A stretch of DNA of 43,365 nucleotides, taken from NCBI GenBank assembly GCA_016871495.1, contig VHDF01000036.1, positions 1 through 43,365 on the forward strand, read 5' to 3'. The notes beneath the pieces are model-generated. The model was not told the DNA's origin. It ran no database searches and worked only from the letters and a program-made list of their open reading frames with translations. The stretch comes from Verrucomicrobiota bacterium (GTDB lineage Bacteria; Verrucomicrobiota; Verrucomicrobiia; Limisphaerales; VHDF01). Both the position numbers and the translations under genes were made by a program. Positions 17,425 to 22,142 of this stretch are shown piece after piece. Numbering within the stretch: the stretch's first letter is position 1; each line of letters starts with the position of its first letter.

Positions 17425-18574
17425 ATGTTCGAAGCGACCCTGGAGACCCTGAATGCGGCCGGCGACAAACTGAGGCATTTGCGGAGGTTTCTTTGACGTG
17501 CCCGGATTGCAACAGCGGTTGGGCGAGTTGGAAACCGTCATGGGGGGCGACCAGTTTTGGAACCATCGGGAACAGGCTCAGAAACTGATCGAAGAGGCGA
17601 ACGGGCTGCGGAAGAAGATCGAGCCGCTGGCTCAAATCGAGAAGCAGTTTGAAGATTTGAAAGTGCTGGTGGAACTCTGCCAGGCGGAATCATTGGAGGA
17701 GCAGGCCCGGCAGTTGCCGGAAGTCGAGGCGGAGGCCGCGCGGTTTCAGGCGGGCCTCGAAGTTCTGGAGTTGAGGGTCTTGCTGACGGGGCCGCACGAT
17801 AAACGCAACTGCATCTTGAGCATCAATGCGGGCGCGGGCGGCACGGAGTCCTGCGACTGGGCGAACATGCTTTTGCGCATGTACCAACGATGGAGCGAAT
17901 CGCGCGGCTGGGAGGTCGAAGTGACCGACGCGCTGGCGGGTGACGTGGCCGGAATCAAGAGCGCCACGTTGTTGGTGAGCGGGGAGAATGCCTATGGCTT
18001 TTGCAAGGCCGAGCGCGGGGTGCATCGTTTGGTGCGCATCTCGCCCTTCGACTCGAACAAGCGCCGGCACACCAGTTTCGCGAGTGTCGATGTGATTGCG
18101 GAAATCGAGGAAGGCGGCGACATCGTGGTGCCGCCGAGCGAGATTCAGGTGGACACTTTCCGTTCCGGCGGCAAGGGGGGGCAAAACGTCAACAAGGTCG
18201 AGACGGCGGTGCGGATTACGCATCTTCCGACCGGCATTGTGGCGGCTTCCCAGACTCAGCGCTCGCAGCATCAGAACCGCGCCACGGCCATGAAGATGCT
18301 GCTGTCGAAATTGTACGCGCAGCGCGTGGACGCGCAAAAGGCGGAGATGGAGCGGTTTTACGGGGAAAAAGGCAGTGTTTCCTGGGGCAATCAGATCCGG
18401 AGCTATGTGTTCCAGCCTTATCGCATGGTGAAGGATTTGCGCACGGGCTACGAATCCAGCAACGTGCAGGCCGTGATGGATGGTGACTTGGACGGTTTTG
18501 TGAATGCCTGGCTGCGCGCGGGTGGCCCGGCCAAGCGGATGGCTGGAGTCCGGGACGACGAGGAGGGCGAGTGA
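17425..18574 (+). CDS. prfB: Peptide chain release factor 2 (programmed +1 frameshift)
   Basis: RF2 releases peptides at UGA and UAA. Translation starts at ATG 17425 and reads 23 codons to CTT (17491-17493). It then slips +1 over TGA 17494-17496 to read GAC (17495-17497), giving a 382-residue protein. The later frame carries the RF2 anticodon-like tripeptide SPF (about 206-208) and the catalytic GGQ (about 251-253, in [13 protein letters not shown]). Annotating only the downstream frame (GTG 17498) would lose the N-terminus. The last codons overlap trpC by 4 bp. Regulation is autogenous: low RF2 gives slow UGA reading and more frameshifting. Confidence 0.96.
17483..17497 (+). promoter_or_regulatory. 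RF2 +1 frameshift site
   Basis: An internal Shine-Dalgarno GGAGG (17483-17487) sits 3 nt before CTT TGA C (17491-17497). This is the same arrangement as in the Escherichia coli prfB recoding site. The peptide before the stop (LRRFL) also mirrors the E. coli LRGYL. Confidence 0.95.
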
Positions 18575-19401
18575 GCGGTTCAGGCACTGGCGGAACGGCC
18601 ACGATTCTCGACCAGATCGTGGAGCGGAAAAGGGTGGAGATCGCGAGGCTTCCGGAGGAGAAGATCTCCGTTCCTTTCTTGAAAGAACTGGCGGATTCGC
18701 GAGGCGGGATCCGTGATTTCGAGGGAGCGTTGCGGCGTCCACTGATGGGCCGGGTTTCCCTCATCGCGGAGGTGAAGAAGGCCTCGCCATCGGCTGGGGT
18801 GATTTGTCCGGATTTCGATCCGGTGCGCATTGCGAGGCGCTACGAGGCGGCGGGGGCGTCGTGTCTTTCGGTTCTCACCGATGAACAGTTTTTTCAGGGA
18901 TCGCTGGAGTATTTGAGAGCCATTCGGAGCGCGGTGAGTCTGCCGTTGTTGCGCAAGGATTTCCTGATCGACCCGCGGCAAGTCGCGGAAGCCATTCGGG
19001 CCGGGGCTGACGCGATCCTGTTGATTGTGGCGATTCTGGATGACGCGTGTTTGCGGGAACTTCACCGCTTGGCGACGGGCGCGGGGTTGGCCGCTCTCGT
19101 GGAAGTGCATGACGAGGCGGAACTGCAGCGCGCGCTCGGAATTGGCGCGACGTTGATCGGCGTGAACAATCGCGACTTGAAGACCTTCAAGGTGGATCTG
19201 GCGACGACGGAGCGACTGTCCGCGCGCCTGGTCCAGTCCGGTCGCATGCGGCAAACCTTCTTGGTGGGAGAAAGCGGCGTCCATTCGCGGGCTGACGTGG
19301 CGCGATTGGAAGCCGCCGGAGTGGGAGCGATCTTGGTCGGGGAATCCTTGGTCAAGAGTCCCGACATGGAGGCGAAAGCGCGGGAGCTTCTGGCAGGTTG
19401 A
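18571..19401 (+). CDS. trpC: Indole-3-glycerol phosphate synthase
   Basis: A 276-residue TIM barrel that converts carboxyphenylamino-deoxyribulose phosphate to indole-3-glycerol phosphate in tryptophan synthesis. Conserved strands are seen: [16 protein letters not shown] (catalytic Lys), [36 protein letters not shown] and [13 protein letters not shown]. The start is GTG 18571 within the prfB stop (GTGA overlap), so the two genes are probably co-translated, an unusual pairing with no other trp gene nearby. Confidence 0.95.
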
Positions 19402-19422: not shown

Positions 19423-20931
19423 TCAAGAAGGCGCGGCGACCGTCACTTCGAAAGCGCCCGTGACGATCTGGCCTCTGGCTTTGGCTTGGAACCAGACGCG
19501 ATACCGGCCCGGCTTGGGAAACGCGTAGGGGAAATGGACCCGTGATTCTTGGGTGTCCACACCGCAGATGAGATCGTCGAGGCGCCGGACGGCGTTGATG
19601 TCGAGTTCGCGTTTGGCAAAGGTCATAAGTGAGGCCATGGAAGCCGTGCCTTGAGGGTGCAAGTGAGTGAACACCGAGCTGTCCTCGTGCAGAATCACGG
19701 CATGTCCCGGCATGCCCATGTACAGTTCCAGTGGGGCGGGCTGGCCGTTCGCATCGACGACTTGGAAGCTCAAGCTAAGATCAACTCCCGCCACGACCGA
19801 AGACAATGCCTCCCATCGCACCTGATAGGGTTGGGAGGGCACTGAAGGGGAAGGAGCCGCGCCGGTTCCAACGGGATGAGAGGCGTGCCAGGCATCAGTC
19901 GGATCCGGACTTATTTCGCTGTGATGCCACGAGGCTGGGGAGGCGCCGGGACCGATTCGGACTCGACCGGTGAGGGTTTGGGACGCTCCGGTTTCGTGGG
20001 TGATGTCGGCGAAAGTGAGGTATTCACCCTCCGGCAGAGGCGGCAACGCGGTATCAAAGAGCCGGTCATCTCTTCCGGAGGGATGCAGGTGGGCGAAGAC
20101 GTCGAGGCCAGGTTGCCGGACGAGGAAAAGGTGCATGAGCTTGCCGTGGTCCGGAATCAACGGCGAGCGCTGGTGCCTTTCCCACCGGGGATCATCGATG
20201 GCAAGGCGAAGAGCGCGGTGGCCGTCGCGTTCGCTCAAGGTGAGAGTGGTTTGGGGCGACCGGTAGAGCCGGTTGGATACGAAATGGCGATCCACCGCAC
20301 CCCACCAACGGTAGCCTCCATAGAGTGCGCCCGTGATGAAGATCATAGCCGCGAGGGCCGCGAGGCGTCCGCCCCGGAGGCGGCGGCGGGTGGGAAGGCT
20401 TCCAGGTTCGAGCAGACTTTCACTCAAGGCCGCGCGTGCAATGGAGGCCAGGAGCGCGACGAGGAGGAGGCCGAGCCCGGACAATACTCCAGTCATGAGA
20501 GGAGTCATGACCAGCCTCCGGGTGGCCAGTGCCGTGATGGGCACGATGGCTTCGCCTTTTCCAGCCGAGGATTCGACGCGGACGAGTACGCCGTACGCGC
20601 CGGTGGTCATGAACCAGAGTTCGGCGCTGTAGAGGTTGGTTTCGCCTCGGACGAGCGTGGCTGAGTCGGGAGGAGGCGCCCCCTTGCGTCCGGCATCCCA
20701 CTTCACAGGGAGGACTTGGACCTGATGGGGTCCCGTGTTCTTAACCCGGACCGAAATCTGGGCCAAACCGGGGACGACGGGGGGCGGGCGGATGACGACG
20801 CGGATGGGGTGGGGTCCGGCTTCTCCTTCAAAAAAAACATTGGGGCTGCCGACATGGGCGAGCGCGGGCCAAGCCAGGCCGAGGAGAAGGATGGTGGACC
20901 ACAACGCCACTCTGTCTCGCACTTTATTCAT
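19423..20931 (-). CDS. Membrane-anchored protein with two HLHP (YtkA/FixH-like) domains
   Basis: A 502-residue protein. Residues 1-25 form a signal peptide, followed by a beta-rich domain (about 26-135) and two membrane helices (about 142-166 and 189-209). Two repeated C-terminal beta-domains each carry a conserved-looking HLHP motif (281-284 in VFAHLHPSG; 423-426 in VFTHLHPQG) with nearby His, Met and acidic residues. This arrangement suggests metal, possibly copper, binding outside the membrane, as in YtkA/FixH-type modules. That is an inference. ATG 20931 overlaps the stop of the upstream membrane gene (ATGA), so I reject the longer frame reaching 21222. Confidence 0.65.
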   Translation of the reverse strand: MNKVRDRVALWSTILLLGLAWPALAHVGSPNVFFEGEAGPHPIRVVIRPPPVVPGLAQISVRVKNTGPHQVQVLPVKWDAGRKGAPPPDSATLVRGETNLYSAELWFMTTGAYGVLVRVESSAGKGEAIVPITALATRRLVMTPLMTGVLSGLGLLLVALLASIARAALSESLLEPGSLPTRRRLRGGRLAALAAMIFITGALYGGYRWWGAVDRHFVSNRLYRSPQTTLTLSERDGHRALRLAIDDPRWERHQRSPLIPDHGKLMHLFLVRQPGLDVFAHLHPSGRDDRLFDTALPPLPEGEYLTFADITHETGASQTLTGRVRIGPGASPASWHHSEISPDPTDAWHASHPVGTGAAPSPSVPSQPYQVRWEALSSVVAGVDLSLSFQVVDANGQPAPLELYMGMPGHAVILHEDSSVFTHLHPQGTASMASLMTFAKRELDINAVRRLDDLICGVDTQESRVHFPYAFPKPGRYRVWFQAKARGQIVTGAFEVTVAAPS

Positions 20932-22142
20932 CGCCGGACGCGAGTCATCCAGCCTCCGATTCCGAGCCCCACGGCGGAGGCGGCTATGCCGAGGCCTGCC
21001 GCGAGGGCGATGTCTTTGGGCTGGGCAGCGGAGCGGTTGCGCAACCAGAATTCTTTCTGATAGGGACCAGGTCTGGAGAAGTAGGGATAGAACGCGCGGC
21101 CGGCAAAGAACCGATTTTGCGCCGAATCGGAGATCAAGAATTTCGAGAAATGCCATTGGGCCGGGAGCATCGTGCCCACGAAAAGTGCTCCGAGCGGAAT
21201 GGCGAGCAGGAGGACTCGCCACCAGGGAATTCTCCCTTTACCAAAGCGTTGAATGAGGAGGTCGAACAGCGCAGCCGGCAAGATGAGCAAGAGCGGAAAC
21301 GCGGGCGGCACCATGTGAGTGACCGGCGAGTAGATGGGCGCGAGCATGGGCTGTCCGCGGAAGAGGGGGAGGATCCAGAGGGCGCCGGCCATGATGCCCA
21401 TGTAAATGGCGGCGGAGCGAGTGGCACCCCAATTCCCCTTGGAAGCGCGGGAGATGAGAGCCAGATAAACCGGAAAGGTGCTGGCGATGATCCCGTAGAA
21501 GAGTCCGCTATGCTGCTGATTGGGAAAAGTCTCCTCGGTCATCATGATGGCGAGCATGGTGATGAGGACCCCGGCGACATCATTGAAAAGGAGACTGGCC
21601 CGTGCTTGCTTGGACTCCTCGATGTTGTTTTGGCAGGCGAGAACCAGGAGCAGAACTCCGAGCGCGACTCCAAACATGCCCAAAGCGAGAACGGAATGCG
21701 GTGGACTGATGATTTCCACGTCCAGGCCATAGGCGTCGTGCCACCAGTCGTCGAAAGGCGCGGAAGTGAGCATGGCGAGGTTTCCCCAGACTACCACCCA
21801 AGCTCCCAAGGGACCGTGGAAACCCCAGATCCGAACGGCTCCCGCCTTTTCACGGTCCGTGCCCCAAAAAGTCAGCCGCAGGATGAGTGCGATGCAGGTG
21901 AGGCCGGGAATCAGTCCACCCGCGTGAATGCAGAGATGGGCTGGCGTCCAGAACGTGTCTCGTCCGATGGTGGAATGCCACGAAATGTCCCACAGCACTC
22001 CCACGGGTATGCCGGTGACTCCGATGGCGGCGAGGTAAATGAACCACGGGATGGCCGTTGGTGCGGTGTCCCGGATTCGGGACCCGGCGGTTTCGAGAGG
22101 AGGCATGAGGACCTCAGCGCTCATTCCATCTTGCCGAGCCAT
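20928..22142 (-). CDS. Uncharacterised polytopic membrane protein with His/Trp motifs
   Basis: A 404-residue protein with about nine predicted membrane helices. Two striking segments stand out. Around residues 51-75, WDISWHSTIGRDTFW is followed by His69 and His73. Around 129-149, PFDDWWHDAYGLDVEI is followed by PPH (His149). The clustering of His, Asp and Trp at helix ends looks like a metal or cofactor site. I do not recognise a characterised family. Start choice lies between ATG 22142 and ATG 22124. It is translationally coupled to the HLHP-domain gene downstream, so the two proteins probably work together in the envelope. Confidence 0.65.
   Translation of the reverse strand: MARQDGMSAEVLMPPLETAGSRIRDTAPTAIPWFIYLAAIGVTGIPVGVLWDISWHSTIGRDTFWTPAHLCIHAGGLIPGLTCIALILRLTFWGTDREKAGAVRIWGFHGPLGAWVVVWGNLAMLTSAPFDDWWHDAYGLDVEIISPPHSVLALGMFGVALGVLLLVLACQNNIEESKQARASLLFNDVAGVLITMLAIMMTEETFPNQQHSGLFYGIIASTFPVYLALISRASKGNWGATRSAAIYMGIMAGALWILPLFRGQPMLAPIYSPVTHMVPPAFPLLLILPAALFDLLIQRFGKGRIPWWRVLLLAIPLGALFVGTMLPAQWHFSKFLISDSAQNRFFAGRAFYPYFSRPGPYQKEFWLRNRSAAQPKDIALAAGLGIAASAVGLGIGGWMTRVRR

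Follow-up and report, generated by a model that had tools for sequence, protein, structure and literature searches.

A two-gene locus of a Verrucomicrobiota bacterium encodes a remote relative of copper membrane monooxygenase C and A subunits in one chain, beside a partner with a B-subunit-like layout

The window, a stretch of 43,365 nucleotides from a Verrucomicrobiota bacterium (contig VHDF01000036.1), contains two overlapping genes on the minus strand, gene 1 and gene 2. The first-pass annotation had described a two-gene system in which a polytopic protein with His56, His69, His73, His135 and His149 is coupled to a signal-bearing protein with two HLHP motifs. We found both open reading frames, with each of the five histidines at the position claimed, and the two HLHP motifs are present and conserved among 55 homologues of gene 2. 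The features of the locus, with the evidence for each, are:

20928-22142, minus strand: gene 1, PmoC-PmoA-like fused membrane protein, 404 amino acids, ten predicted membrane helices (translation, AlphaFold2 model, 61 homologues)
21624-22055, minus strand: PmoC-like half of gene 1, residues 30-173 (hhalign and PDB-wide profile search)
21936-21989, minus strand: Cu_C-like site D52-x3-H56-x4-R61-x7-H69, corresponding to PmoC Asp156/His160/Arg165/His173 (invariant in 61/61)
21696-21752, minus strand: Cu_D-like site D131-x3-H135-x13-H149, corresponding to PmoC Asn227/His231/His245 (invariant in 61/61)
20931-21623, minus strand: PmoA-like half of gene 1, residues 174-404, with conserved E203, D294 and W330 (VIA-align and hhalign)
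20928-20931, minus strand: ATGA, stop/start shared by gene 1 and gene 2 (read directly)
19423-20931, minus strand: gene 2, signal-bearing, membrane-anchored partner, 502 amino acids, B-subunit-like layout (translation, AlphaFold2, locus position)
20854-20931, minus strand: signal peptide (1-25), with His26 as the predicted mature N-terminus (A-H-[VI]-G around the point of cleavage)
20530-20847, minus strand: N-terminal Ig-like domain (29-134), CrdA-like (structural and sequence match)
20269-20502, minus strand: two membrane helices (144-170, 182-221; AlphaFold2 secondary structure)
19954-20250, minus strand: Ig-like domain with the first HLHP (281-284 at 20080-20091), D261, H262 and H267 (AlphaFold2 and conservation)
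19435-19824, minus strand: Ig-like domain with the second HLHP (423-426 at 19654-19665) and H410 (AlphaFold2 and conservation)

Judged from its homologues, the real start of gene 1 may be Met7 (22124). Elsewhere in the window, prfB (release factor 2; 17498-18574, plus strand) has a classic programmed +1 frameshift signal, GGAGGTTTCTTTGAC, at 17490-17500, just upstream of the annotated frame; the next gene, immediately after prfB, is trpC (indole-3-glycerol phosphate synthase; 18571-19401).

Relatives were collected from one genome per species, with 84,980 species scanned, by means of two peptide patterns that overlap the gene 1 motifs (around residues 57-65 and 131-139); this survey yielded 80 loci. 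The invariance of gene 1 within the pattern regions is partly due to selection, and D52, H56, H69 and H149 lie outside both patterns. A gene 2 homologue is present in the fetched DNA of 62 loci outside Actinobacteria, nearly always directly after gene 1, and the pairwise distance matrices of the two genes are correlated over 54 loci (r = 0.89, in part a reflection of shared species history; maximum of 1000 permutations, 0.14). From these 62 loci and the distance correlation, we conclude that gene 1 and gene 2 are a real, conserved pair. At one locus (L013, 5110-7465), about 2.4 kb with two open reading frames separates the genes that form a tight pair elsewhere. A candidate fusion of the two genes at another locus (L062) was ruled out: it consists of two overlapping frames.

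Searches of Pfam, NCBIfam and the PDB with the single gene 1 sequence returned sub-threshold hints only, and the lone hint in a single-sequence scan was AmoC at residues 51-73, below the cut-off. Gene 1 scored 7.3 bits against PF04896 and 7.9 bits against NF041641, and thus did not reach the respective curated cut-offs of 26.7 and 319. Among the 61 homologues, 17 matched Pfam AmoC at E <=10 (best 5.8e-4), and the next family was matched by five. When a profile of the 61 homologues was run against 177,635 distinct PDB sequences, it matched AmoC/PmoC only, up to E 10 (E 0.0019-0.007); with a profile of the actinobacterial family, the first seven PDB matches were all AmoC/PmoC (E 0.024-0.19). A large gene 1 profile, run on plasmid records and genomes, matched annotated C subunits of hydrocarbon, ammonia and methane monooxygenases (best E 1.4e-6 and 2.6e-6), and a four-sequence profile matched, besides itself, two of 288 genomes of the phylum. 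PF04896 genes are abundant in both of these genomes, and the one that we inspected encodes PmoC beside PmoA. Aligned by hhalign, the whole gene 1 profile gave P 4.3e-5 against PmoC. Foldseek with the AlphaFold2 model of gene 1 (pLDDT 91.9, pTM 0.90) ranked many unrelated helical proteins first and AmoC 42nd, yet AmoC had the top probability in the list.

The N-terminal half of gene 1 alone gave P 8.8e-6 against PmoC by hhalign, and a score at the PmoC level was reached neither by any of 60 block shuffles nor by the reversed alignment. In PmoC, Asp156, His160 and His173 are the ligands of Cu_C, Asn227, His231 and His245 are those of Cu_D, and the pocket is lined by Arg165 and Phe177 (PMC12576850). 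We found the Cu_C ligands, spaced Dx3Hx12H, in all 61 gene 1 homologues, in 10/10 actinobacterial relatives and in 7/7 reference PmoC sequences. R61, the equivalent of the second-shell Arg165, is kept in 61/61, the Cu_D histidines (His231 and His245) correspond to H135 and H149 in every homologue, and W51 and D131 are invariant as well. The position of Asn227 is occupied by Asp in 61/61; we do not treat Asn227 as CuMMO-defining (CuMMO, copper membrane monooxygenase), because the D-site is reported to be missing from archaeal CuMMOs. A check proposed earlier, on whether the five histidines are invariant, bears out H56, H69, H135 and H149 but not H73: at this position, the place of Phe177, 40 of the 61 homologues have Tyr, 12 Gln and 9 His.

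Both motifs, in order and 55-110 residues apart, occur in 84 of 7,921 open reading frames of the fetched loci, all of them family members or PmoC, and the distance between the sites, measured from Asp/Asn to Asp/Asn, is 77-80 residues in the gene 1 family, 68-72 in the actinobacterial relatives and 71-73 in PmoC. Thirteen loci outside the alignment were found by profile only; 11 of these match neither collecting pattern, and in each of the 13 both site motifs occur together with a same-strand gene 2 homologue. Gene 1 has in common with PmoC/AmoC (PF04896) the motif Dx3Hx12H with Arg at +9, then [N/D]x3Hx13H, in the same order. It differs from PmoC in missing the N-terminal helices, in its Asp in place of Asn227, in the second membrane domain fused to it and in scores below the curated cut-offs.

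This second domain resembles PmoA. VIA-align was run against the PDB chains ranked best by Foldseek with the gene 1 model, and eight pMMO/AMO chains lead (Z 12.8-14.0), covering residues 174-404, with the next unrelated row at 6.9; by their lengths and the established chain naming, we take these chains to be PmoA/AmoA. The alignments to PmoA/AmoA have an rmsd of 4.0-4.6 over about 200 residues at 10-17% identity. Helical bundles may reach Z 13-14 by chance, but such a match is disfavoured here by the gap of six Z units and by the fact that all eight chains are the same protein. Moreover, hhalign of residues 174-404 against PmoA (193 columns) reproduced the register of the fold with P 0.0022, a result that 0/60 shuffles reached, and the swapped pairings (C-terminal half with PmoC, N-terminal half with PmoA) were not significant. 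The sequence link to PmoA is weak on its own, and the PmoA signal is absent from the actinobacterial-family profile; it is by fold that a PmoA-type subunit is recognised. Residues 174-404 are thus like PmoA/AmoA (PF02461) in fold and in aligned acidic and Trp positions, whereas PmoA/AmoA is encoded by a separate gene and the A-like part of gene 1 has none of its own. PF02461 had no match in the host genome.

Together, these results make us highly confident that gene 1 belongs to the CuMMO superfamily. Its homology to the C and A subunits is remote, and it looks like a PmoC-PmoA fusion in one chain; the view that neither protein matches a characterised system was thus wrong for gene 1. Convergence on the PmoC pattern by the paired Asp/His hairpins of an unrelated membrane protein, which may bind copper or another metal with no CuMMO descent, would account for an overall identity at only the remote-homology level, for scores below the curated HMM thresholds and for a gene 2 that is not recognisable as PmoB. 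We consider such convergence improbable, given that two profiles match AmoC/PmoC only or first in the PDB, that the same spacing recurs at two sites together with the Arg, and that the second half matches PmoA independently, with shuffle controls. Gene 1 nonetheless does not count as a pMMO or an AMO: it lacks the three-gene organisation and the Asn ligand, its scores lie below the curated cut-offs and a B subunit is unproven.

The product of gene 2 was modelled with pLDDT 91.9 and pTM 0.88. His26 stands at the predicted cleavage point in 55/55 homologues, and H262 and H410 are nearly invariant. The suggestion that both HLHP motifs might be invariant holds for the first (H281, H283 and P284 in 55/55, as is the neighbouring H267) and falls slightly short for the second (H423 in 54, H425 in 53 and P426 in 54 of 55); the two HLHP domains are mutually homologous (hhalign P 3.2e-6). 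Among the matches listed, the top structural match of the N-terminal domain is Helicobacter pylori CrdA (Z 9.9, rmsd 2.6, 100 residues), which is also its sole plausible PDB sequence match (E 0.0058). CrdA is a copper-resistance protein (PMC9182242). Some members of the gene 2 family give weak scores to YtkA and CopC, and the fold of the domain is like that of CrdA and of CopC/YtkA/FixH-type periplasmic copper proteins; CrdA, however, is free, Met-rich and without His, whereas the gene 2 domain is anchored beside a CuMMO-like subunit. Stand-alone relatives of the C-terminal half of gene 2, which comprises the HLHP domains, adjoin copper/heavy-metal ATPases, RND pumps, DUF305 and a copper-binding protein in metal-resistance islands.

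In its layout, gene 2 is like PmoB/AmoB (PF04744), in which a signal peptide leading to a mature N-terminal His is followed by a beta domain, two transmembrane helices and a C-terminal beta domain. It is unlike PmoB in having three beta domains, Ig-like rather than demonstrated cupredoxin, and a C-terminal HxHP, and in its lack of a sequence match: hhalign of gene 2 against PmoB, whole or per domain, found nothing. PmoB is likewise absent from the 50 fold matches listed for the gene 2 model, the Foldseek and VIA rows being generic Ig-domain proteins. In PmoB, the N-terminal His and an HxH of the N-terminal domain form the Cu_B site; gene 2 has the invariant N-terminal His but no HxH in that domain, and each of its C-terminal domains has one HxHP. 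Verrucomicrobial methanotrophs are reported not to conserve the N-terminal copper site of PmoB (PMC6215863). PF04744 had no match in the host genome, a weak absence since controls for this family were also silent. Gene 2 is therefore B-like by position and layout only.

As for position, gene 1 (C-A) followed by gene 2 (in the place of B) has the same C-A-B order as xmoCAB operons. Those operons comprise three separate genes, whereas here there are two, with C and A domains fused, a difference that is organisational and not decisive for homology. The nearest precedent for the pair is provided by the divergent archaeal CuMMOs of Thermoplasmatota (Ca. Angelarchaeales), which are also deeply divergent, were recognised by their Cu_C ligands at low identity and have a shortened C subunit; unlike the pair described here, they are archaeal, have separate A, B and C subunits, keep Cu_B and are reported to lack the D-site (PMC9038741). 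In the open-access literature, we found no account of the gene 1 family, nor of a fused or bipartite CuMMO, and this CuMMO-like two-gene relative was apparently undescribed.

Gene 1 is present in 59 of 293 genomes sampled from the host's order (about 20%) and almost absent elsewhere in the phylum sample. The other carriers are Acidobacteriota, Gemmatimonadota and Actinobacteria, and the family is represented in the completely sequenced named strain Terriglobus roseus DSM 18391; no family member was found on viral contigs. The two-gene form occurs in bacteria of soil and water in which methane or ammonia oxidation is not known. The actinobacterial form is a single-gene variant of gene 1 with a C-terminal beta domain. 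The idea that this domain is a fused gene 2 N-terminal domain received only weak support (P 0.0059) and was set aside. Among side observations from the plasmid records, a Rubrobacter marinus copy (L004, 8001-8543) looks broken, with a truncated frame and an annotated CDS that begins downstream, and the R. marinus chromosome (L072) has a longer copy; Methylocystis and Nitrosomonas plasmids (L108, L109, L111) carry a lone pmoC/amoC, with no annotated A or B genes within 3.5 kb.

The actinobacterial relatives lie in copper-resistance islands, among multicopper oxidases, ResB, CcsA, DUF305, DUF6153, CopY-type regulators and copper ATPases. Plasmid pMYCCH.01 of Mycolicibacterium chubuense NBB4 (L118 10590-12059, L112) carries a canonical hydrocarbon monooxygenase CAB operon and, within a copper island, also the gene 1 variant of Actinobacteria (E 2.9e-17). 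Outside Actinobacteria, we found no recurrent neighbour and no linked metabolic or copper genes beside the pair. The co-occurrence with cytochrome oxidase or copper genes that had been proposed as a check was thus not observed beside the pair outside Actinobacteria; in Actinobacteria, multicopper oxidases and ResB/CcsA adjoin the gene. In the host genome, no alcohol dehydrogenase scored above the PQQ-ADH cut-off.

Copper binding by the system is very likely. The proposal that the pair handles copper in the envelope is well supported by the PmoC-type ligands, by the actinobacterial copper islands and by the CrdA-like and YtkA/FixH-like domains. That the sites instead bind zinc or iron, in a metal-dependent membrane enzyme or sensor without oxygen chemistry, would be in keeping with the change from Asn to Asp in the second site, which makes a harder ligand set; the copper-island context of the relatives, the CrdA-like domain and a mature N-terminal His typical of copper histidine-brace proteins leave this reading very little room. 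The copper sites would lie on the periplasmic side, because positive residues occupy loops remote from the sites and gene 2 has a signal peptide.

What the copper is used for divides two readings that share the same homology. We favour, with a probability of about 0.5, a divergent CuMMO lineage in which gene 2 stands in PmoB's place and redox catalysis is retained. Under this model, the PmoC-like and PmoA-like domains of gene 1 would join gene 2 in a plasma-membrane complex, with gene 2 taking the place of PmoB. Copper would be held on the outer face by the N-terminal His and HLHP domains of gene 2 and would load the Cu_C/Cu_D pocket, which lies within the membrane close to this face (D52/H56/H69 with R61, adjoining D131/H135/H149), where reduced copper could activate O2 and so oxidise a small substrate or Cu(I) itself. 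Redox chemistry is favoured on the ground that the pocket is complete, arginine included. Copper handling is nearly as likely because of the copper-island context: in this case, a complex for uptake, storage, export or resistance would use the CuMMO scaffold; gene 2 would gather copper, gene 1 would retain it or hand it on at the membrane, and no organic substrate would be oxygenated. The neighbourhood of the actinobacterial members fits this function at least as well, and the CrdA-like domain with the weak YtkA/CopC scores of some members, the stand-alone HLHP-domain relatives in metal-resistance islands and the lack of catabolic partner genes point the same way. Nevertheless, the whole Cu_C pocket, with the Arg165 equivalent, is invariant as it is in the enzymes, and outside Actinobacteria the pair is unlinked to copper genes. 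Returning to the divergent-CuMMO reading, we suggest only tentatively that members of Verrucomicrobiota, Acidobacteriota and Gemmatimonadota for which neither methane nor ammonia oxidation is known possess functional CuMMOs of a deeply divergent lineage that act on a small substrate, the C and A subunits being joined in one chain and the B subunit being either non-homologous or diverged beyond recognition.

The oxidation of methane and that of ammonia, each the start of a global cycle, are CuMMO reactions, and the active site of these enzymes is a matter of long-standing debate. A natural relative with the Cu_C/Cu_D pocket in one chain, with Asp for Asn and with another B partner, would reveal which elements are required for the chemistry. 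Surveys with pmoA/amoA markers would probably miss the family, because the A-subunit family model matches nothing here. The question can be put to the test, as the family is common in one order of Verrucomicrobia and is present in T. roseus DSM 18391, and either outcome would be informative: a hidden oxygenase of soil bacteria, or a copper-handling complex that shows other uses of the CuMMO scaffold, and perhaps its origin.
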